Of a stretch of 64,000 bases of DNA, positions 27,487 through 38,142 are shown piece after piece. The position numbers and the translations under genes were made by a program. This stretch comes from Marihabitans asiaticum (GTDB lineage Bacteria; Actinomycetota; Actinomycetes; Actinomycetales; Dermatophilaceae): assembly GCF_007828725.1 (NCBI RefSeq), contig NZ_VIUW01000004.1, positions 62,001 through 126,000 on the forward strand, written 5' to 3'. The notes under the pieces are model-generated. The model saw only the letters and a list, made by a program, of their open reading frames with translations. It did no database searches and was not told where the DNA came from. The stretch's first letter is position 1. The number at the start of each line of letters is the position of its first letter.

Positions 27487-28296
27487 ATGCGTCAGTACCT
27501 CGACCTGCTTCAGCACGTGATGGACGAAGGGGTCGAGAAGTCCGACCGCACCGGCACCGGGACCCGCTCGGTCTTCGGCTACCAGATGCGCTTCGACCTC
27601 ACCGAGGGCTTCCCGGTCCTCACGACGAAGAAGCTGCACCTGCGCTCGATCATCGGCGAGCTGCTGTGGTTCCTGCGCGGCGAGACCAACGTGGCCTGGT
27701 TGCACGAGCGTGGCATCTCGATCTGGGACGAGTGGGCCGATACGAAGGGGGATCTCGGCCCGGTCTACGGGCACCAGTGGCGCAGCTGGCCGACGCCGGA
27801 CGGCGGGTCGGTCGACCAGATCGCGCGGGTGGTCGCGTCCATCCGGACCACCCCCGACAGCCGGCGTCACATCGTCTCGGCGTGGAACGTCGCCGATGTC
27901 GACGAGATGGCCCTCCCGCCGTGCCACACGATGTTCCAGTTCTACGTCGCGCCGGGCGTCGACGGCGGGCGCGGGCGCCTCTCCTGCCAGCTGTACCAGC
28001 GCAGCGCCGACATCTTCCTCGGGGTTCCGTTCAACATCGCCAGCTATGCCCTGCTGACGATGATGGTCGCCCAGCAAACCGATCTCGGGGTGGGCCACTT
28101 CGTGCACACCCTCGGCGACGCCCACCTCTACCTCAACCACCTCGAGCAGGCCGCCACCCAGCTCGGCCGCGAGCCCGGACCGCTGCCGACGATGCGGATC
28201 ACCCCACGCAACTCGATCGACGCCTATGAGCTGGAGGACTTCGAGCTGATCGGGTACGAGGCACAGCCCGGAATCAAAGCGCCGGTCGCCGTATGA
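27487..28296 (+). CDS. thyA: thymidylate synthase
   Basis: This 269-residue ThyA converts dUMP to dTMP using methylene-tetrahydrofolate, releasing dihydrofolate. It shows [19 protein letters not shown] at the N terminus, [11 protein letters not shown], the nucleophilic Cys in [13 protein letters not shown] near residue 145, and [19 protein letters not shown]. The ATG at 27487 follows TAGATT by seven bases. Its TGA overlaps the start of the Nudix-DHFR gene (ATGA), coupling dihydrofolate production to its reduction. Confidence 0.96.
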
Positions 28297-29333
28297 GCCG
28301 GCCGACCCCCCTTCGCCCGGGCGAGCCGACCCCCCTTCGCCCGGGCGGGCCGGCTCCCCTTCGCCCTGGTCGTCCCGTCCATCCCGATCTGCGGGGGCGG
28401 ATCCCGCTGCTCGCCGCCGCGTACGCCGTCATCACCCGGGACGCCCCGGGCGGCCGCGAGGTGCTGCTCCAGCTGCGCGAGGGCACCGGCTTCATGGACC
28501 AGTGGTGGGCGTGCGGTGCCGCCGGCCACGTCGAGGACGCCCAGGCTCCGTCGGTGGCGCTCGCGCGTGAGGTGCGCGAGGAGCTCGGGGTCGACGTGGT
28601 CTCGGCGCACCCGTTGACCACGATGCAGCGCGGCGGACTGGTGGGTCGGCGCGAGCAGCGGGCCGACTTCTTCTTCCAGGTCGACGCGATCGAGGGCGAG
28701 CCGCGGATCGTCGAGCCGGACAAGACCGCCGACCTGCGCTGGTGGCCGCTGACCGAGCTGCCCGATCGGGTCGTCCCCCACGAGCGCGTCGTGCTCGAGG
28801 CGCTCGCCGCCCAGCTGACCCAGGGCGTCCCCGTGCCGGCGCTGATCGAGCACGGCTTCGCCCAGCGGCTCACCCTCGTCGCCGCGATCGGGGCCAACCG
28901 GGCCATCGGGGTCGACGGCGGGATGCCCTGGCACCTGCCCGAGGACCTGCGTCACTTCAAGGAGGTGACGATGGGCGGGGTGATGGTCATGGGCCGGCGG
29001 ACGTGGGACTCGATCGGCCGGGCGCTGCCGGGCCGGCGCACCGTCGTCATCACCTCGGACCGGTCCTGGTCCGCACCCGGCGCCGAGGTGGCTCACTCCC
29101 TGGCCGAGGCGCTGCTCGTCGCGGGCGACGGCGAGGTCTTCGTCGTCGGGGGCGGTGAGATCTACGCGCAGACGATCGAGCTCGCGAGCCGGCTCGAGAT
29201 CACCCACGTCGAGGTGTCGCCGGAGGCGGAGGTGTTCTTCCCCGAGATCGATCCCGAGGCGTGGCGTGAGGTACGGCGCGACGAACGGGAGGGGTACACC
29301 TTCGTCAGCTACGCGCGGGTCGGCGAGCTCTGA
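28293..29333 (+). CDS. Nudix hydrolase-dihydrofolate reductase fusion
   Basis: This 346-residue protein fuses two enzymes. Residues 1-30 hold three copies of a P(T/A)PLRPG unit. Residues 35-175 are a Nudix domain whose box is [14 protein letters not shown] then REVREELGV; the first Glu of GX5EX7REUXEEXGU is replaced by Gln, but the catalytic REVREELGV is intact. Residues 190-345 are DHFR, with [39 protein letters not shown] and [12 protein letters not shown]. The frame is continuous. Four-base overlap with thyA supports a folate role: DHFR recycles dihydrofolate, and the Nudix part may remove dUTP, an oxidised nucleotide or a pterin triphosphate (inference). Confidence 0.93.
28308..28363. repeat. 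three tandem copies of the CCCCTTCG motif in a 22-25 bp unit
   Basis: CCCCTTCGCCC(G/T)GG occurs at 28308, 28332 and 28356 inside the extreme 5' end of the Nudix-DHFR gene, encoding the repeated PLRPG peptide. Confidence 0.85.
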
Positions 29334-29412
29334 GACGGGGACCCGCCGATCTCGTCGGTGGTGACCGTCCTGAGCGCCGGCCCTCTTAAGCATTGAACTT
29401 CTTTTGCATCAG

Positions 29413-29431
29413 ATGAAGCTATGATCTTCAT
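29413..29431. promoter_or_regulatory. operator and -10 box of satD
   Basis: The inverted repeat ATGAAG (29413-29418) and CTTCAT (29426-29431) straddles TATGAT (29420-29425), a near-perfect -10. The second arm ends at the ATG. A regulator bound here would cover the -10 and the start of a leaderless message. The surrounding 40 bases are unusually AT-rich. Confidence 0.55.
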
Positions 29432-30082
29432 ATGTCACATCTGAAGGGTCGCACTGTCGCCACGCTCATCGGCGACGTCGTCGGGTCACGGGACTCCGAC
29501 GACCGACGAGGGCTGCACCGGCGCCTCCTCGCGGCACTGGCCGACGAGACCGCTCGGTCCGTGGCCCTCGAGCCGCCTGCGGTGACGGTGGGCGACGAGT
29601 TCCAGGGCTGCTACCCCACCGTCGGGGCCGCGATCGCCGCCGGCTGGCGGCTGCGGACCACCCTCCTGCCGGAGGTCGACGTGCGGGTCGGCATCGGGTG
29701 GGGGCCGGTCACCCGGCTCGACGACACCGTCCAGGACGGCCCCGGATGGTGGGCCGCCCGCGAGGCGATCGACTGGGTCGCCGAGGCCCAGACGAAGGCG
29801 GGGACCCGCGCCGTGCGCACCGCCTACCGCAGCGAGGAGCCCGGCGGCCCCGACCCGGCCGCGGTCGACGCGGCCCTGCGTTGTCGGGACCATCTGCTGG
29901 GATCACTGGACGAGAGGTCGCAGCGCATCCTAGGAGGACTCATGGCCGGTCGCACCCAGGCCGAGATCGCCGACAGCGAGGACATCAGCGCCTCGGCGGT
30001 GTCGCAGCGGGTTCGCGGTGACGGCCTGGCGCTGCTGCTGCAGGTCGCCGACCAGCTCGCCGAGGTCGGGGCCCGCCGATGA
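29432..30082 (+). CDS. SatD family protein
   Basis: This 216-residue protein has the SatD core: ATLIGDVVGSRDSDDRRGLHRRL, then VTVGDEFQGCYPTVGAAI and RVGIGWGPVTRL. A C-terminal helix-turn-helix-like segment follows (GRTQAEIADSEDISASAVSQRV, about 175-197). SatD was first named in a Streptococcus mutans acid-tolerance operon; the biochemical role is not known. The C-terminal HTH suggests it may bind DNA. TATGAT lies six bases before the ATG, inside an inverted repeat. Its stop overlaps the start of the membrane partner (ATGA). Confidence 0.82.
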   Translation: MSHLKGRTVATLIGDVVGSRDSDDRRGLHRRLLAALADETARSVALEPPAVTVGDEFQGCYPTVGAAIAAGWRLRTTLLPEVDVRVGIGWGPVTRLDDTVQDGPGWWAAREAIDWVAEAQTKAGTRAVRTAYRSEEPGGPDPAAVDAALRCRDHLLGSLDERSQRILGGLMAGRTQAEIADSEDISASAVSQRVRGDGLALLLQVADQLAEVGARR

Positions 30083-30837
30083 TCACCCTCGCGACCTTCC
30101 TCGTCGGCATCGGCGTCATCGACCTGACGTCCAGCATCCTGCGCGCCGGGCCCAGGGGTGGCTCGCGCCCGGTGCTCGCCTCGCTCGCCTCGGGCTGGGT
30201 CGCCCTGCTGGTGAGCGCCGGGCTCACCGGTCAGCTGACCGGATGGTCGGGGTGGCTGCTCACGGCGCTCGCCGGCGGCTTCGCCACCGCCTGGGCCCTC
30301 ATCACCCGCCGCGCCCTCGACCGCGGGGCGCCGCACCTGCTGCCGTTGCTCGTCCTGGCGCTCGGGGTGCTCGTGCTCGTAGTGCTGGCCGGCTTCGCGC
30401 CACCGAGCGAGGGGGGGCTCTCCCGCTGGATCGGATGGGCCGGCCTGCCCTGGCAGCCCACGCCGGAGCGGGCGGCACTGCTCGCCGGCCTCGCCCTGGT
30501 GCAGCTGAGCACCGGCAACGTCGTCGTCCGCCTCGTCCTCGTGAGCACCGGGGCGATGCAGGCCGATCCTCGGGGGGTCGAGCCGGCGGAGGAGCTCAAG
30601 GGCGGGCGCGTCCTCGGCCCGCTCGAGCGGCTCTTCATCCTCGGGCTCGGGCTCGCCGGCGAGGTGACCGCGGCGGGTCTGGTCATCGCCGCGAAGGGGC
30701 TGATTCGCTGGCCCGAGCTCAAGGCGCACTCCGAGGACGCCGAGCACCCGATCGACAAGGTGACCGAGTACTTCCTCGTCGGGTCCTTCGTCTCGTGGCT
30801 CGTCGCCCTGGTGGCGCTCGTCCTCGCCTCGGGCTGA
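30079..30837 (+). CDS. polytopic membrane protein paired with SatD (DUF3307-like)
   Basis: This 252-residue protein has about six or seven hydrophobic helices. The conserved region ELKGGRVLGPLERLFILGL, GLVIAAKGLIRWPEL and VTEYFLVGSFVSWL is typical of the membrane proteins that accompany SatD-family genes in many bacteria. It is cotranslated with the SatD protein (four-base overlap), so they probably act together. No enzymatic motif is visible. Confidence 0.75.
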   Translation: MITLATFLVGIGVIDLTSSILRAGPRGGSRPVLASLASGWVALLVSAGLTGQLTGWSGWLLTALAGGFATAWALITRRALDRGAPHLLPLLVLALGVLVLVVLAGFAPPSEGGLSRWIGWAGLPWQPTPERAALLAGLALVQLSTGNVVVRLVLVSTGAMQADPRGVEPAEELKGGRVLGPLERLFILGLGLAGEVTAAGLVIAAKGLIRWPELKAHSEDAEHPIDKVTEYFLVGSFVSWLVALVALVLASG

Positions 30838-30841
30838 CCCC

Positions 30842-30847
30842 TATCCT
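30842..30847 (+). promoter_or_regulatory. -10 box for enoyl-CoA hydratase gene
   Basis: TATCCT lies six bases before the GTG at 30854. Confidence 0.45.
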
Positions 30848-30853
30848 GCTCCG

Positions 30854-31579
30854 GTGCCCATCCGCAGCGAGTCCGACGACACCGTCCACGTCCTGACGAT
30901 CGAGCGCCCGGAGCGTCGGGGTGCGCTCGACCTCGACCACCTCGAGGAGCTCGACGCCGCGATCGCGGCGGCCGCCGGCGCCGGGGCACGCGCCCTCGTG
31001 CTCACCGGCAGCGACGGCCACTTCTGCGCGGGCGCCGACCTCACCCAGCTCGAGGACGTCAGCTTCACCCACCGGCTGGCAGAGGTCCTCGACCGGCTCG
31101 CCACGCTGCCCATCACGACGATTGCCGCGATCTCCGGGTCCTGCATGGGTCTGGGGATGCAGCTGGCGATCTCGTGCGACATCCGCGTGGCCGACGAGAC
31201 GGCACGCTTCGCCGTCCCGGCCGCCAAGCTCGGTCTCATGGTCGACGCGTGGACGATCGACCGCCTGCGCCGGTTCTGGGGCGAGGGCGCCACCCGCTCG
31301 ATGCTGCTCACGGCCGCCGTCCACGACATCGACGACGCCTGGCGCCTCGGCTTCGTCCAGCACCATGGCGACCTCGCGAGCGCTCGCGAGCTGGCGTCGG
31401 GCGCCGCCAGGCTGGCACCGTTGTCCCAGGCGTGCGCCAAGCTCGGGCTCGAGGTCGGCGACGGAGTCGGCTCGGCCGACTTCGAGCGGGCCTACGAGCG
31501 AGCCTGGTCCAGCGCCGACCTGCAGGAGGGGCGCCGAGCTTTCGCGCAGCGCCGTGCCCCCGAGTTCGAAGGAGCCTGA
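30854..31579 (+). CDS. enoyl-CoA hydratase/isomerase family protein
   Basis: This 241-residue crotonase-fold protein has the oxyanion-hole segments GSDGHFCAGADLTQLED (about 55-71) and AAISGSCMGLGMQLAISCDIRVADETARFAVPAA (about 92-125). The GADL and GxxxGxG patterns are conserved. The second position commonly occupied by the catalytic Glu reads KLGLMVDAW, so hydratase chemistry is uncertain. TATCCT lies six bases before the GTG. It is directly followed by a GNAT gene with overlapping TGATG. Confidence 0.87.
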   Translation: MPIRSESDDTVHVLTIERPERRGALDLDHLEELDAAIAAAAGAGARALVLTGSDGHFCAGADLTQLEDVSFTHRLAEVLDRLATLPITTIAAISGSCMGLGMQLAISCDIRVADETARFAVPAAKLGLMVDAWTIDRLRRFWGEGATRSMLLTAAVHDIDDAWRLGFVQHHGDLASARELASGAARLAPLSQACAKLGLEVGDGVGSADFERAYERAWSSADLQEGRRAFAQRRAPEFEGA

Positions 31580-32139
31580 TGAGCCAGCCCGGTGCGGACG
31601 CCTCGGTCCGCCAGGCCCGGTCCAACGACCTCCCAGCCCTCGGTGTGGTGCAGGCGCTGGTGTGGCAGCAGGCCTACGACGGGGTCGTCCCGCCCGAGGT
31701 CCACGCGCAGTTCCAGCCGTCCGCCTTCGCCACCGCCTGGCGGGAGTCACTGGCCCACCCGCCCGAAGGGGTGCACCGCCTCCTCGTCGCCCTGGCCGGC
31801 GACCAGGTGGTCGGCTTCGCCGCTCTCGGACCGAGCCAGGACCCGGACACCGGTCAGGCCACCGGCGAGCTCACCGCGATCGGCGTCCATCCCCAGGCGC
31901 GTCGTCAGGGCCACGGGTCGCGCCTGCTCAACGCCGTGGTCGACATGCTTCGCGAGCTGGGCGCCGACGCCGTCACGGCGTGGGCGCTCGCGACGCAGGA
32001 GGAGACCCGCGCCTTCCTCGCCGGCGCCGGGCTCGCTCCCGACGGCGCCTACCGCGACCGGGTGGTCGGCCCGGACGGGCAGACCGCGCGCGAGGTGCGC
32101 CTCGTCGCCGCCCTGGGTGAGGGCCAGAGCACCGACTGA
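31579..32139 (+). CDS. GNAT family N-acetyltransferase
   Basis: This 186-residue GNAT protein has the acetyl-CoA-binding motif A as GELTAIGVHPQARRQGHGSRLLNAVVDML (RRQGHG loop near residue 112) and motif B as FLAGAGLAPDGAYRD. The ATG overlaps the hydratase stop (TGATG) and GGAG lies six bases upstream. The acetyl acceptor is unknown. A motif copy at 31764 encodes HPPEGVHR. Confidence 0.87.
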   Translation: MSQPGADASVRQARSNDLPALGVVQALVWQQAYDGVVPPEVHAQFQPSAFATAWRESLAHPPEGVHRLLVALAGDQVVGFAALGPSQDPDTGQATGELTAIGVHPQARRQGHGSRLLNAVVDMLRELGADAVTAWALATQEETRAFLAGAGLAPDGAYRDRVVGPDGQTAREVRLVAALGEGQSTD

Positions 32140-32174
32140 GCGCGCAGTCATCGAGCGCCGTCCGCGACGACCTG

Positions 32175-32336
32175 AGCGCGCACCTGCCCTGGCAGATGCG
32201 GACAACCGGGCCAGTGAGCGCGCACCTGCCTTGGCAGGTGCGACGGGCGGAGTCAGGTGAGCGGGTACCTGCCTTGGCAGGTGCGAGGGCAGGTTCAGAT
32301 GAGCGGGTACCCGCCTTGGCAGGTGCGAAGGCAGAG

Positions 32337-32339
<3 letters not shown>
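32175..32339. repeat. four tandem ~42-bp repeats, each containing a hairpin
   Basis: Units begin near 32181, 32223, 32266 and 32308. Each carries an inverted repeat based on GCACCTGCCTTGGCAGGTGC (9-base arms, 2-base loop) flanked by GAGCGSG on the left and GCGA-GGC on the right. Copies 2-3 are the most perfect; copies 1 and 4 have one or two changes. They fill the gap between the convergent GNAT and dapB genes, and the last abuts the dapB stop. Confidence 0.9.
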
Positions 32340-33116
<777 letters not shown>

Positions 33117-33280
33117 TCGACGCCCCCACCTCGGCCTCGCCGCTCCCGATCAGCTCGCCTGCGAGGACGTTGCGCGGGGACGGGTCGATCGGGCTCACAC
33201 CGTCCCGCTGCCGCTCGTTCACCTTCCGTTCATCTTCTGCTACCCTTCTGGTTAACACCCGATGAACAGGAGGTGTCCAG

Positions 33281-33427
33281 ATGACCGTCTCTCCCCTCAC
33301 CGTCCGGCGACCCGGCGCTCGCCTGACCTGCACGTGGGTCAAGGTCACGGACGCTGACGGCCGCACGCGGATGGAGATGCGTTGGATCGACGACGCCGGC
33401 CAGCGTTCGCGTCGCGCAGCCGCCTGA
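33281..33427 (+). CDS. 48-residue conserved-looking small protein
   Basis: A short gene has a very strong Shine-Dalgarno (AGGAGG at 33269-33274) before ATG 33281. It encodes 48 residues: a basic N-terminal half (TVRRPGARLTCTWVKVTD) and a polar C-terminal half with DADGRTRMEMRWIDD. It has a possible -10 (TACCCT near 33240) and is followed by a strong intrinsic terminator (33455-33482). The complete transcription unit argues that it is real despite its size. The function is unknown; the KVTDADGRTRMEMRWID segment looks like a small beta-sheet protein. Confidence 0.75.
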   Translation: MTVSPLTVRRPGARLTCTWVKVTDADGRTRMEMRWIDDAGQRSRRAAA

Positions 33428-33454
33428 CGACCGGTCCCCACGACAGACGCGAAG

Positions 33455-33482
33455 GGCTGCTCACCCACTCGGGTGAGCAGCC
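33455..33482 (+). terminator. intrinsic terminator after the micro-ORF
   Basis: A perfect 12-base stem (GGCTGCTCACCC paired with GGGTGAGCAGCC) has an ACTC loop and is followed by TTTCGTC. It lies 28 bases past the 48-residue gene. It may also serve the convergent gene ending at 33516. Confidence 0.85.
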
Positions 33483-33515
33483 TTTCGTCATGCCTTCGGG
33501 GCCATCCGCGCCAGA

Positions 33516-34880
33516 TCAGGCCGGCGGCAGCTCACGAATGCGAGACGCGTCCATGCCCAGCATCTGCGCGGGCCCTTCGTCGGGCACGAAGACGAGCGAC
33601 GACGCCGCGCCGTGCGCCTCGAGATAGCCCTCACTGCCGTCTTCCCCGTAGATCGCGCGGTATCGCTCATCGGGCAGGTAGCGCCAGCCTGACTTGAGGT
33701 CACCCCGCAGGGTCAGGCCCTGGACGAGGTGCACGAGCAAGCCGCCCTCGACCCGCAGCGCCCGGAGCGAGCCGCCCGGAGCGGCCTTGCCTCCGTCGGG
33801 CCAGCTGGTGATGAATGCCGCCGTGCTGCGCTGGTTCTTCCCGGGCTCGAGCATCGCCCCCCGCCGCTCCTGGATCGAGCCGGGCACCTCGAGGTCTGCC
33901 TTGCCGGTCTCGAACCACTTCTCGACCTGGCCGGAGACCGCCGCCGCTCGCTTAAGGTCCGCCTCGTCCGCGGTCGCCTCGTCCGGCGAGAGGGGTTCGG
34001 GGAGCGCGTCGTCTCCCAGCTCGGCGCCGGCGAACTGACGCCACCCCCCTTCGGCCCCGGTGCGGACCATCACCCAGGCGTTCGGGGAGACCACGTCGTC
34101 CTCTCCCTCGGCCGACCACGTCTCGGTCCCGTGGACGATCGCCCAGAGCGGGTAGTCACCCTGCTCTGCCACGTACACCCCGTCAACCGAGTGCGTCCCG
34201 GTCCAGTCCGTGCCCTGGTCCTCGGTGTGCTGTGCGGCTCGCGTTGCCAGTTCGTCGACGAGCAGGGTGGGCCCGACATCCACCGTCGACCACGTGCTCC
34301 CGTCCCCGGCGTCGGACGCATCGCCCGGCTTCTCGTTCTCCACGCTGTACCGCTCCATGACCGCCACCGACTCGTCCTTGGTGAGCGGGACGACGCTCGG
34401 CTCGCCATGATCGACCGTGTGCGGCACCGCGCCGCACCCGGTCAGGACGGCAGCGGACCCGAGCGCGACCACTCGCCGAGCGGTGCGAGCAGAGGCAGCC
34501 TTCCGGCCCTCCCCGACCTCCCGCTCCTGCTCCTGCTCCACCGAGCGGTCCTCGCTCGTGGGGTCGGCCGCTGCGCCCCGCGGCGTGCGTCGCCGCCCCC
34601 AGCGCAGGCACACCAAGGCGAGGAGCAGCCCGATGCCTGCGGCCACCAGTCCAGCGAGGAAGCCACCCGGCACCTGGTAGCCCACGCCGACCTCGGGACG
34701 CTCACCGTCCGGGGAGGCCGGCATCGCGACGATCTGCATCTGCTCATCACCCAACGGCACGTCCAGGGCGACCCGGTCCTCGCCCTTCGCCTCAACGGAC
34801 CAGACGTCGGTCTCCTCCGGTCGGCCCCGCGGGTAGTCCCGCTCACCGTCGCGCTGGTCGACATCGCCGATCCCGCTCAT
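33516..34880 (-). CDS. membrane protein/lipoprotein-like composite of unknown function
   Basis: This 454-residue frame has an N-terminal polar part, one transmembrane helix (GGFLAGLVAAGIGLLLALVCL, about residues 72-92) and a basic patch. Then comes an internal lipoprotein-signal-like segment ARRVVALGSAAVLTGC near residue 150. A large soluble domain follows, with two TSWPDGGKAAPGG/LRGDLKSGWRYLPDERYRAIYG regions. A lipobox in mid-protein suggests that two genes have fused, or that the lipoprotein is also made from an internal start, although no good start or Shine-Dalgarno is visible. No domain is recognised. One motif copy (34046) encodes GAEGGWRQF. Confidence 0.6.
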   Translation of the reverse strand: MSGIGDVDQRDGERDYPRGRPEETDVWSVEAKGEDRVALDVPLGDEQMQIVAMPASPDGERPEVGVGYQVPGGFLAGLVAAGIGLLLALVCLRWGRRRTPRGAAADPTSEDRSVEQEQEREVGEGRKAASARTARRVVALGSAAVLTGCGAVPHTVDHGEPSVVPLTKDESVAVMERYSVENEKPGDASDAGDGSTWSTVDVGPTLLVDELATRAAQHTEDQGTDWTGTHSVDGVYVAEQGDYPLWAIVHGTETWSAEGEDDVVSPNAWVMVRTGAEGGWRQFAGAELGDDALPEPLSPDEATADEADLKRAAAVSGQVEKWFETGKADLEVPGSIQERRGAMLEPGKNQRSTAAFITSWPDGGKAAPGGSLRALRVEGGLLVHLVQGLTLRGDLKSGWRYLPDERYRAIYGEDGSEGYLEAHGAASSLVFVPDEGPAQMLGMDASRIRELPPA

Positions 34881-35067
34881 CCCGAGCGAGGCGATCTCGG
34901 TGTGCGCGACGTCCCGCAGATAGCTACGCCGACCACTCGAACCACACGCACCTGCACGCCCTGCCTCCCCTGGCCGGCACCCCTGCGGTTTCGACGCCCG
35001 GCCGTGACGCTAACAAGAACCCGCCCGGTCGGCAGGTCGAGTTTCCACAGGCTTAAGGCACAGGCAC

Positions 35068-35107
35068 AGGCGAAGGGGGCTGCCCGGCCGGGCAGCCCCC
35101 TTCGCCT
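35068..35107 (-). terminator. 40-bp perfect palindrome downstream of pnp, built from two convergent iterated motifs
   Basis: The arm AGGCGAAGGGGGCTGCCCGG is followed directly by its exact reverse complement, giving a perfect 40-base palindrome. Each arm contains one CGAAGGGGG copy. It lies 22 bases past the pnp stop, where an intrinsic terminator is expected. Confidence 0.85.
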
Positions 35108-35129
35108 TCAGGGTGCGGTGAGGTCACCG

Positions 35130-37601
35130 TCAGCCGGCGGTGTCCTCCGAGGAGGCCGCGTCGCGGGCGTCGTCGGCGGGACCGGAGTCACCGTCGGTGC
35201 GCTGGTCGCCACCACCGTCGCCGCCTCGACCACGACCGCCGCGCCGACGACGGCGGCCGCCGTCGCGCTCGCCGCGCTCGTCGTCCCGGTCCTCACGCTC
35301 GGGACGCTCGCCGCCCTCGCGGGAGCCGCCCCGGTCGCCGCCCGACTGCTCGAGCTCGGCCTGCTGCTCGCCGTTGAGGACGGCGGCGAGGCTCAGCTTG
35401 CCGCGCGGGTCGATCTCCTTGAGCTCGACCTGGACCTTCTGGCCGACGCCGAGGACGTCCTCGACGGCGTCGATCCGCTTGCCGCCGACGAGCTTGCGCA
35501 CCTCGGAGATGTGCAGCAGACCGTCCTTGCCGGGCAGCAGCGAGACGAACGCCCCGAAGGTCGTCGTCTTGACCACCGTGCCGAGGAAGCGCTCGCCGAT
35601 CTCCGGCATCTGCGGGTTGGCGATCGCGTTGACCGCGTTGCGCGCAGCGTCGGCCGAGGGGCCGTCGGCGGAGGCGATGAAGACCGTGCCGTCGTCCTCG
35701 ATCGAGATGTCGGCGCCGGTGTCGTCCTGGATCTGGTTGATCATCTTGCCCTTCGGGCCGATGACCTCACCGATCTTGTCGACCGGGACCTGGACGGTGA
35801 TGATCCGCGGCGCGGTCGGGGCCATCTCGTCCGGCCCGTCGATCGCCTCGTTCATCACGTCGAGGATGTGCAGGCGAGCGTCGCGCGCCTGGGTGAGGGC
35901 GCCCGCCAGCACCGAGGCGGGGATGCCGTCGAGCTTGGTGTCGAGCTGGATCGCCGTGACGAACTCGCGGGTGCCGGCGACCTTGAAGTCCATGTCGCCG
36001 AAGGCGTCCTCGGCGCCGAGGATGTCGGTCAGCGCGGCGTAGGACGTCTCGCCGTCGACCTCGTCGGAGACCAGACCCATGGCGATGCCGGCGACCGGGG
36101 CGCGCAGCGGCACACCGGCGTTGAGCAGCGACAGCGTCGAGGCGCAGACCGAGCCCATCGAGGTCGAGCCGTTCGAGCCCAGGGCCTCGGAGACCTGCCG
36201 GATCGCGTACGGGAACTCCTCGCGCGTGGGCAGCACCGGCATGATCGCCCGCTCGGCGAGCGCACCGTGCCCGATCTCGCGCCGCTTGGGCGAGCCCACC
36301 CGGCCGGTCTCACCGGTCGAGTACGGCGGGAAGTTGTAGTTGTGCATGTAGCGCTTCTTGGTGACCGGGCTCAGCGAGTCGATCTGCTGCTCGAGCTTGA
36401 GCATGTTCAGCGTCGTCACGCCCATGATCTGGGTCTCGCCGCGCTCGAAGAGCGCCGAGCCGTGCACCCGCGGGAGCACCTCGACCTCGGCGGAGAGCGC
36501 ACGGATGTCAGCCAGACCACGCCCGTCGATGCGGACCTTGTCGCGCAGGATGCGCTGGCGGACCAGCTGCTTCTGCAGCGAGCGGAAGGCAGCGGAGAGC
36601 TCCTTCTCGCGGCCGGCGAACTCACCGGGGGCGTCCTGGGTGCCCGCGAGGTCGGCCTTCATGGCCTCCTTGATCTCGTCCAGGCGGTCCTCACGCTCGG
36701 CCTTGCCGGCGATCGTCAGCGCCTCGGCGGTCTGCTGCGAGGCAGCCTTCTCGACCGCGGCGTAGGCGTCGTCCTGGTAGTCCAGGAAGACCGGGAACTC
36801 CTCGACGGGCTTCGCGGCGGTCTGGGCCAGCTCGGCCTGGGCCTCGCAGAGCACGCGGATGAACTTCTTCGACGCCTCGAGGCCCTCGGCGACGACCTCC
36901 TCGGTCGGCGCGGTCTTGCCCTGGTGGTTGACCAGGTCCCAGGTCGACTCGGTCGACTCGGCCTCGACCATCATCACGGCGACGTCATCGTCGACGACGC
37001 GGCCGGCGACGACCATGTCGAAGGTCGAGCGCTCGATGTCGCTGAAGTTCGGGAAGGCCACCCACTGGCCGTCGATGAGGGAGACCCGCACACCGCCGAT
37101 CGGGCCCGAGAAGGGCAGACCGGAGATCTGGGTCGACGCCGACGCCGCGTTGATCGCGAGCACGTCGTACTGGTGGTCGGGGTGGATGGACAGCACCGTG
37201 ATGACGACCTGGACCTCGTTGCGCAGGCCCTTGACGAAGGACGGGCGCAGCGGGCGGTCGATGAGACGGCAGGTGAGGATGGCGTCGGTGCCGGGTCGGC
37301 CCTCGCGCCGGAAGAAGCTGCCGGGGATGCGTCCGGCGGCGTACATCCGCTCCTCGACGTCCACGGTCAGCGGGAAGAAGTCGAACTGGTCCTTGGGGTT
37401 CTTGCCGGCCGTCGTGGTCGACAGCAGCATCGTCTCGTCGTCGAGGTAGGCGCTCACGGCGCCGCCGGCCTGCTTGGCGAGACGTCCGGTCTCGAACCGG
37501 ACGGTACGGGTGCCGAAGGCGCCGTTGTCGATGACGGCTTCGGCGGATGTGATCTCTGGACCCTCCATTGGGCCCTCCATTTCTGTGCTTGCGTCACTCA
37601 C
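35130..37601 (-). CDS. pnp: polyribonucleotide nucleotidyltransferase (PNPase/GPSI)
   Basis: This 823-residue phosphorolytic 3'-to-5' RNase has two RNase PH-like domains: [29 protein letters not shown] near residue 40, and [17 protein letters not shown] with [18 protein letters not shown] in the second. KH ([19 protein letters not shown]) and S1 ([33 protein letters not shown]) domains follow. The C-terminal tail is Arg/Gly/Asp-rich (about 755-823), as in actinobacterial PNPases. It lies downstream of rpsO, the near-universal pairing. The ATG at 37601 or the Met at residue 9 or 12 could be the start. No iterated-motif copy occurs in its 2.5 kb. Confidence 0.96.
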
Positions 37602-37682
37602 CGGAGATCGTCGTCGTTGCGCCCCCGGCGTCCTGCATCACCGGCGGCTGCCGGTGCGGTGGGGACGTCTGCGCCCCCACAA

Positions 37683-37723
37683 CGCGAAGGAGCGGCCCCG
37701 CATCAGTGGGACCGCTCTTCGCG
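37683..37723 (-). terminator. hairpin between rpsO and pnp
   Basis: The arms CGCGAAGGAGCGG and CCGCTCTTCGCG pair with one bulged base around a 16-base loop, 6 bases past the rpsO stop. The T-tract is weak, so it may attenuate or be an RNase processing site rather than terminate fully; rpsO-pnp leaders are commonly processed. Confidence 0.6.
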
Positions 37724-37728
37724 TGGTC

Positions 37729-37998
37729 TTATCGACGGAGACCGAGGCGCTTGATCAGCGACCGGTAGCGCTCGATGTCCGTGGTCTCGAGGTAGCGCAG
37801 CAGACGGCGGCGACGACCGACGAGCAGCAGCAGCCCGCGGCGGCTGTGGTGGTCGTGCTTGTGCTCACGCGAGTGCTCGGTGAGGTCCTTGATGCGCTGG
37901 GTGAGGAGGGCGATCTGCACCTCCGGGGAGCCGGTGTCGCCCTCACCGGTGCCGTACTCGGCCATGATCTGCTTCTTCACGTCAGCGGTCAGCGGCAT
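37729..37998 (-). CDS. rpsO: 30S ribosomal protein S15
   Basis: The 89 residues, [20 protein letters not shown] through [34 protein letters not shown] and [14 protein letters not shown], are canonical S15 at its usual length. It binds 16S rRNA in the platform. The ATG at 37998 is preferred over an upstream in-frame start at 38055. GAAGGAG lies about a dozen bases before it. Confidence 0.97.
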
Positions 37999-38142
37999 GC
38001 TTGGGGTCACTGCTCCTTCACTTGGTCGTTGCGCGGCGCGCCCGGGCAGGTCCACCGAGGCTCTACGGGTCCGCGGCCGTCTTGACGGCGACGCCCAGGC
38101 TACCGGGGCCCGGGCGTCGCCACCTAATCGACGAAGGGAGGG

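Follow-up and report, generated by a model that had tools for sequence, protein, structure and literature searches.

A four-hairpin array in Marihabitans asiaticum as a probable locus of a dispersed palindrome family resembling REP/BIME elements

What is a tandem array of four similar hairpins doing between two convergent genes of M. asiaticum? A first-pass annotation had offered a terminator array, a protein-binding array or a variable-number repeat. With moderate confidence, we favor the reading that the array belongs to a lineage-specific palindrome family with loci dispersed over the genome, which works like REP/BIME (REPIN) elements, spreads and is homogenized. Below, the window is the whole 64,000-nucleotide stretch analyzed, G000 is this genome (2.95 Mb), G001 the sister species and G002 a second congener; the comparison covers these three genus genomes, with one genome per species.

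The array at the window locus

The features of the locus are listed by window coordinates.

31579..32139, plus strand: GNAT acetyltransferase gene, left convergent neighbor (Pfam PF00583, E 1.8e-14)
32173..32346, unstranded: whole tandem array (TRF: period 42, 4.1 copies, score 183)
32180..32199, plus strand: hairpin unit 1, GCACCTGCCCTGGCAGATGC, with 8 Watson-Crick pairs, one mismatch and the loop CT
32222..32241, plus strand: hairpin unit 2, the perfect GCACCTGCC-TT-GGCAGGTGC, with a 9-bp stem
32265..32284, plus strand: hairpin unit 3, GTACCTGCC-TT-GGCAGGTGC, with 8 Watson-Crick pairs and one G-T pair
32307..32326, plus strand: hairpin unit 4, GTACCCGCC-TT-GGCAGGTGC, with 7 Watson-Crick pairs, one G-T pair and one mismatch
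32337..33104, minus strand: dapB (dihydrodipicolinate reductase), right convergent neighbor (Pfam PF01113 and PF05173)

The four-hairpin array with a 42-bp period described earlier was recovered, with exact unit spacings of 42, 43 and 42 bp, and it does lie between convergent genes, the GNAT gene ending at 32139 and dapB at 32337, where the dapB stop codon is 10 bp from unit 4. The 9-bp stem and 2-base loop attributed to every unit are perfect only in unit 2, whereas units 1, 3 and 4 contain non-Watson-Crick positions; the loop is TT in units 2–4 and CT in unit 1. Variation had been placed mostly outside the stems, and the three internal spacers indeed vary more (14/22 to 18/23 identical after alignment), but the stems vary too, any two units agreeing at 16–19 of 20 positions. 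All four units scored the same way, with the octamer-foot side on the right, and unit 4 runs into a degenerate octamer foot (GCGAAGGC).

When the intergenic region was folded as RNA, the plus strand gave z = -2.4, with 4 of 200 dinucleotide shuffles folding equally well, and the minus strand gave z = -3.9, with 0 of 200. An Rfam scan of 31900–32600 returned 0 matches at E≤1, which rules out a known RNA family for the array, and a search of 31500–33200 found 0 U-tract terminator sites, which rules out a canonical U-tract terminator there.

A dispersed family with a changed stem in the sister species

At up to 2 mismatches, the 20-bp palindrome GCACCTGCC-TT-GGCAGGTGC was found at 47 places in G000, compared with 1 for the reversed-pattern control. 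Within the 0.85 Mb sampled, these places group into 26 clusters, each holding one to four units, and at least two places (C1:62738 and C2:211853) lie outside that sample. Unique, non-repeated sequence is thus excluded for G000, but both congeners lack an array at the window site. A 17-base core occurs at 38 places in G000, at none in the two congeners and once each in 4 of 35 other genomes. Separately, a 19-base core appeared once in each of nine proteobacterial genome stretches, six of them titled Pseudomonas, in a scan that may omit the window's own or very near records.

In the sister species the units read GCACGAGCC-AA-GGCTCGTGC, so that both stem halves differ from those of G000 and pairing is retained; the arms are GA/GA in 62 of 64 sampled G001 units. 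With the two inner stem bases left free and an A/T loop, the pattern GYACNNGCC-WW-GGCNNGTRC occurs without mismatch 31 times in G000, 79 times in G001 and 0 times in G002, which restricts the family to two of the three genus genomes; elsewhere in the bacterial family, 1–2 copies were present in 5 of 146 other sampled genomes. A looser pattern (one mismatch, any loop) gave 65, 155 and 24 matches in G000, G001 and G002 against 29, 29 and 45 for the controls, so a good part of these matches is background. The matching change of both stem halves in the sister suggests that what endures is the shape of the hairpin and not its exact letters, in support of the earlier idea that the hairpin is kept.

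These numbers also bear on a local tandem duplication (VNTR) of no wider meaning. Such an origin would fit the period of 42 and the partly alike spacers, but the palindrome is dispersed through the genome and the sister species has a matching changed family, and together these rule it out as a barely credible account. The variable-number element of the first description is retained to the extent that clusters hold 1–4 units and differ between the two species.

Intermediates of the stem change are present in G000. Among the 34 exact-framework units of the whole genome, listed by a pattern blind to the changed bases, the outer and inner arms were CT/CT in 21, CT/GA in 5 and CT/TT in 5, with one each of CT/CA, CT/GT and CT/CC and none GA/GA. 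The outer arm is thus new (CT) in 34/34, and the inner arm is new in 21 and still that of the sister (GA) in 5; CA and GT are the only two single steps possible between GA and CT. If one mismatch is tolerated, G000 has at least one GA/GA unit (L067:13047). A larger set of 55 G000 units gave 35 CT/CT, 7 CT/GA, 5 CT/TT and 8 others, including one GA/GA and one GA/CT of ambiguous loop orientation (L020:4300), and its outer-arm count of 53/55 is biased because most G000 loci were fetched at places found with the type-A pattern. This set, like the 64 G001 units beside it, leaves out units whose stems have fewer than 6 paired positions, whose loop or core letters differ, or which are inexact and lie in called genes. 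Among the loci of the family, the matches at L018 and L036 may be due to chance.

From these counts we infer that the GA/TC state of G001 is the older one and that the change in the G000 lineage began with the arm next to the octamer foot. Intermediates within a single genome make the order of events in the homogenization of a palindromic repeat readable from sequence. Outside the 9-bp stem, the flanks pair well beyond expectation in G001 (mean 1.52 vs 0.92, reached by 0 of 5000 shuffles) and at the shuffled level in G000 (mean 0.55 vs 0.57, reached by 3006 of 5000), so we make no claim of extra pairing for the whole family.

REP, BIME and REPIN elements are described, in the cited portions of PMC8266576 and PMC3116915, as dispersed, mostly extragenic palindromes of 20–50 nt that form inverted doublets and small arrays, and a table in PMC12306157, as far as that portion extends, includes REP-like palindromes in some Actinomycetota. 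The hairpin family is likewise palindromic, dispersed and mostly extragenic (2/26 G000 clusters and 0/29 G001 clusters fall in called genes), with inverted doublets and ordered clusters (24/55 clusters hold both orientations, 22 of them ordered AA then TT). It differs from REP, whose foot is most often GTAG, in having the foot consensus (C)CCCTTC, GTAG being the consensus on neither side; its copies number in the tens, and the foot in about a fifth of units is an octamer found genus-wide. The Y1_Tnp domain (PF01797; RAYT/TnpAREP) matched in 0 of the 3 genus genomes at E≤1, compared with 10 of 14 control genomes, including E. coli. Strict REP is ruled out on these two grounds, and since the family has neither a GTAG foot nor a Y1 transposase match, we describe it as working like REP without filing it as REP. 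Such a family, with a non-GTAG foot and no Y1 transposase found, raises the question of what else spreads these elements.

Orthologous sites were compared where both flanking orthologues are adjacent, a site counting as empty if 260 bp held no unit with up to 1 mismatch. Of 12 such sites, 6 are filled in G000 alone and 6 in G001 alone, and at 11 of the 12 the empty species has the shorter gap; two empty sister sites are just 1 and 27 bp long (L119 and L094). For 14/24 G000 and 21/29 G001 clusters, at least one flanking orthologue could not be located in the sampled DNA, so this comparison is partial. Two sites are shared (L016/L099 and L024/L108), their units being of type A in G000 and of type B in G001. 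At L016/L099, both species have two units in matching orientation with the same neighboring sequences on either side; G001 has one extra unit upstream, and a single base is inserted in the first G000 unit. At L024/L108, the array lies 15–20 bp past the same gene in both. By eye, an 8-bp direct repeat brackets the array at L020/L119.

The window array is private to G000. At this locus in G001, the GNAT gene runs into a gene that we take to be AzlC-like, and dapB lies in the opposite direction with a hairpin made of inverted CGAAGGGG behind it; G002 has other genes between dapB and GNAT. Over window positions 28000–38000, dapB is inverted relative to G001 and not relative to G002. The AzlC-like gene and the gene following it are next to GNAT in both congeners and missing at this position in G000. 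Given this inversion and the two missing genes, the window array sits at a rearranged junction.

Position and geometry of the clusters

Positions were counted for 48 G000 and 68 G001 units (up to 1 mismatch, CT or GA arm) in 26 and 29 clusters, with gene boundaries taken from our own simple codon-usage caller. The G000 clusters comprise 12 in tandem gaps, 11 in convergent gaps, 1 in a divergent gap and 2 inside called genes; for G001 the numbers are 17, 8, 4 and 0. Divergent gaps are under-used in G000 (1/24, P 0.0045) and less so in G001 (4/29, P 0.042, with the null taken from array-rich DNA). The clusters sit behind genes, at a median of 27 bp from the nearest stop codon in G000 and 26 bp in G001, and a stop codon lies within 80 bp of 21/23 G000 and 24/25 G001 convergent or tandem clusters. 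In tandem gaps, the cluster is nearer the end of the upstream gene in 14/17 G001 cases (P 0.0064) and in 9/12 G000 cases, the latter not significant (P 0.081).

This placement fits the main rival, in which the arrays are selected bidirectional terminators, hairpin clusters behind convergent or tandem genes that halt RNA polymerase with no need of a U-tract. Hairpin clusters of this kind have been reported as terminators to which a U-trail is not essential, favored at high GC and lying within about 80 bases of stop codons (PMC8355165, in the part cited), and the present clusters of short hairpins resemble them in their closeness to stop codons (within 80 bp in 45/48 convergent or tandem cases). 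The present clusters also avoid divergent gaps in G000 and, less so, in G001. In G000, hairpins of 8 bp or more occur in more gaps than after one shuffle of each gap at convergent (15 vs 2 of 63) and tandem (40 vs 12 of 202) positions, with hardly any excess at divergent ones (7 vs 5 of 76), and by eye other hairpins occupy some orthologous sites that lack the array (L138, L139 and L113).

However, divergent gaps also rise above shuffles in the array-rich G001 sample (15 vs 2 of 87), and the 3' location of the window array, which fits a terminator array as first proposed, comes without a U-tract. Selection on RNA should favor G-U pairs, yet the sense strands of 65 units in tandem context have 20 G-U and 20 A-C pairs, which gives no support to such selection. 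Two empty sister sites measure just the 1 and 27 bp given above, and function alone leaves the single genome-wide stem sequence unexplained. The reported hairpin clusters are, in the cited part of their source, defined by structure and position, whereas here one stem sequence recurs throughout the genome and is changed in the sister. We regard selected terminators as possible but unlikely.

For geometry, 55 G000 and 64 G001 units were grouped into 28 and 27 clusters. Both orientations occur in 24 of the 55 clusters, and in 22 of these all AA-type units lie left of all TT-type units, none starting with TT, so that mixed clusters form long inverted repeats with the (C)CCCTTC foot side of the units facing outward. 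The other clusters are single units or direct repeats, the window array being of one direction. The 64 spacings between neighbors fall at 29–32 bp (35) or 40–47 bp (29) with none at 33–39, alike in direct and inverted pairs, and counting one spacing per cluster leaves 21 and 18 in the two classes.

Two narrow spacing classes in any orientation, a palindromic site and the lack of an RNA-strand preference would suit a binding array, in which a DNA-bending or nucleoid protein recognizes the palindrome at fixed spacings. One helical repeat does not divide evenly into spacings of both 31 and 44 bp, however, and we make no claim of helical phasing; two positions per arm also differ between the sister species, and we give this explanation little weight. 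The spacing classes and the position behind genes would also suit a selected binding or terminator array.

The REP-like reading would work as follows. A unit of ~30 bp, with the consensus [(C)CCCTTC]-GCACCTGCC-AA-GGCAGGT(A/G)C-[CCG], may spread as a non-autonomous element, probably via a hairpin DNA intermediate. It would settle mostly in short spaces 3' of stop codons and multiply there into direct and inverted arrays with the octamer-foot sides outward. Copies would be kept alike across the genome, with the foot-side arm changed in nearly every G000 copy and the other arm following, so that the palindrome would be restored. In transcripts of either convergent gene, the units could serve as two-way 3'-end roadblocks or stabilizers. 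We infer the mobility by hairpin DNA, the agent that would move or homogenize the copies and any effect on transcripts.

The octamer CGAAGGGG and other repeats

The hairpin had been called distinct from the octamer CGAAGGGG. This does not hold for the family, in which the foot and the last C of the unit complete the exact octamer in 10/48 G000 and 16/68 G001 units, a share far above the background of 2.4 per kb in intergenic DNA. At the window array itself, the four feet are degenerate and none equals the exact octamer. In all, 38/48 G000 and 52/68 G001 units, including the four in the window, are without it, and most of these have degenerate feet.

The octamer is abundant throughout the genus, the three genomes containing 2925, 2589 and 3180 copies, compared with 88–376 in 35 other genomes; at 863–990 per Mb, compared with 24–101 in the 35 others, it is at least 8 times denser. 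The window holds 83 sites against 4 expected, about 20-fold, for example at 31764–31771 (plus strand) and 32796–32803 (minus strand). Copies are equal on both strands; 342 of 479 in the G000 sample lie in called genes, and density is higher between genes. At aligned G000/G001 sites, CGAAGGGG is kept in 182/426 cases compared with 1636/7195 for pooled permutations, although some single permutations are kept more often (18/29). With at least 1000 copies on both strands and a number far above that of relatives, the octamer has a distribution like that of a DNA uptake sequence.

The DUS and USS of Neisseria and Pasteurellaceae are short words present at 1000 or more per genome that also occur inverted in 3'-end hairpins, according to the cited portion of PMC1852404. 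In its thousand-plus copies and its inverted occurrence in a hairpin, CGAAGGGG resembles these in distribution; it differs in that the window array has no U-tract and the stem beside the word is itself repeated. ComEC is present in 19/19 genomes and does not discriminate. Among the matches listed from the open-access literature, there was no report of an uptake-like word in a high-GC bacterium, and the link of the foot to an octamer at least 8 times denser than elsewhere raises a testable case for one.

The hairpin family might then be a by-product of CGAAGGGG, a DUS/USS-like uptake or recombination word that drags adjoining sequence with it, each species amplifying different palindromes that end in the word. 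The density and strand symmetry of the octamer and the exact feet would accord with this, as would a second G000 repeat, CCCCGGGGATCTGCGAAGGGG (long form CTGAGGTTCCCCGGGGATCTGCGAAGGGG), many copies of which run into TGCGAAGGGG. However, natural transformation is unsupported by the non-discriminating ComEC, the majority of units lack the exact octamer, and G002 has the octamer but not the hairpin. We consider the by-product explanation improbable.

A broader claim, that CGAAGGGG is a genus uptake or recombination signal through which palindromes ending in it, both the hairpin and the CCCCGGGGATCTGCGAAGGGG repeat, spread and are homogenized without a transposase, seems to us quite doubtful. If it were true, the change from GAGCC/GGCTC to CTGCC/GGCAG, with hybrids changed only beside the word, would be a dialect shift of a whole family captured in progress.

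The second repeat is all but confined to G000, with 141 places there and 1 in each congener when its first 16 bases were searched at up to 1 mismatch, and it is often spaced 44–45 bp in tandem. In sampled DNA, 52 of 61 copies of its palindrome lie outside called genes. Two window copies were placed in a gene by our caller.

56508, minus strand: second repeat, CTGAGGTTCCCCGGGGATCTGCGAAGGGG
56562, minus strand: second repeat, CTGAGGTTCCCCGGGGATCTGCGAAGGGG

One 20-kb stretch (L053, G000:C1:100001-120000) has unusual, large genes, one of them encoding DUF6603 (E 1e-116), and holds a single octamer, which the by-product explanation would accommodate; the stretch is perhaps acquired DNA.

A third hairpin, CTACCACGCAGTA(C/G)TGGTCG, whose right arm is complementary, is also repeated, with 4 copies in sampled G000 (L138:9401, L016:5720, L065:4475 and L136:19827), 4 in G002 (L076, L083 and L092) and 0 in G001, and some copies show paired C/G changes.
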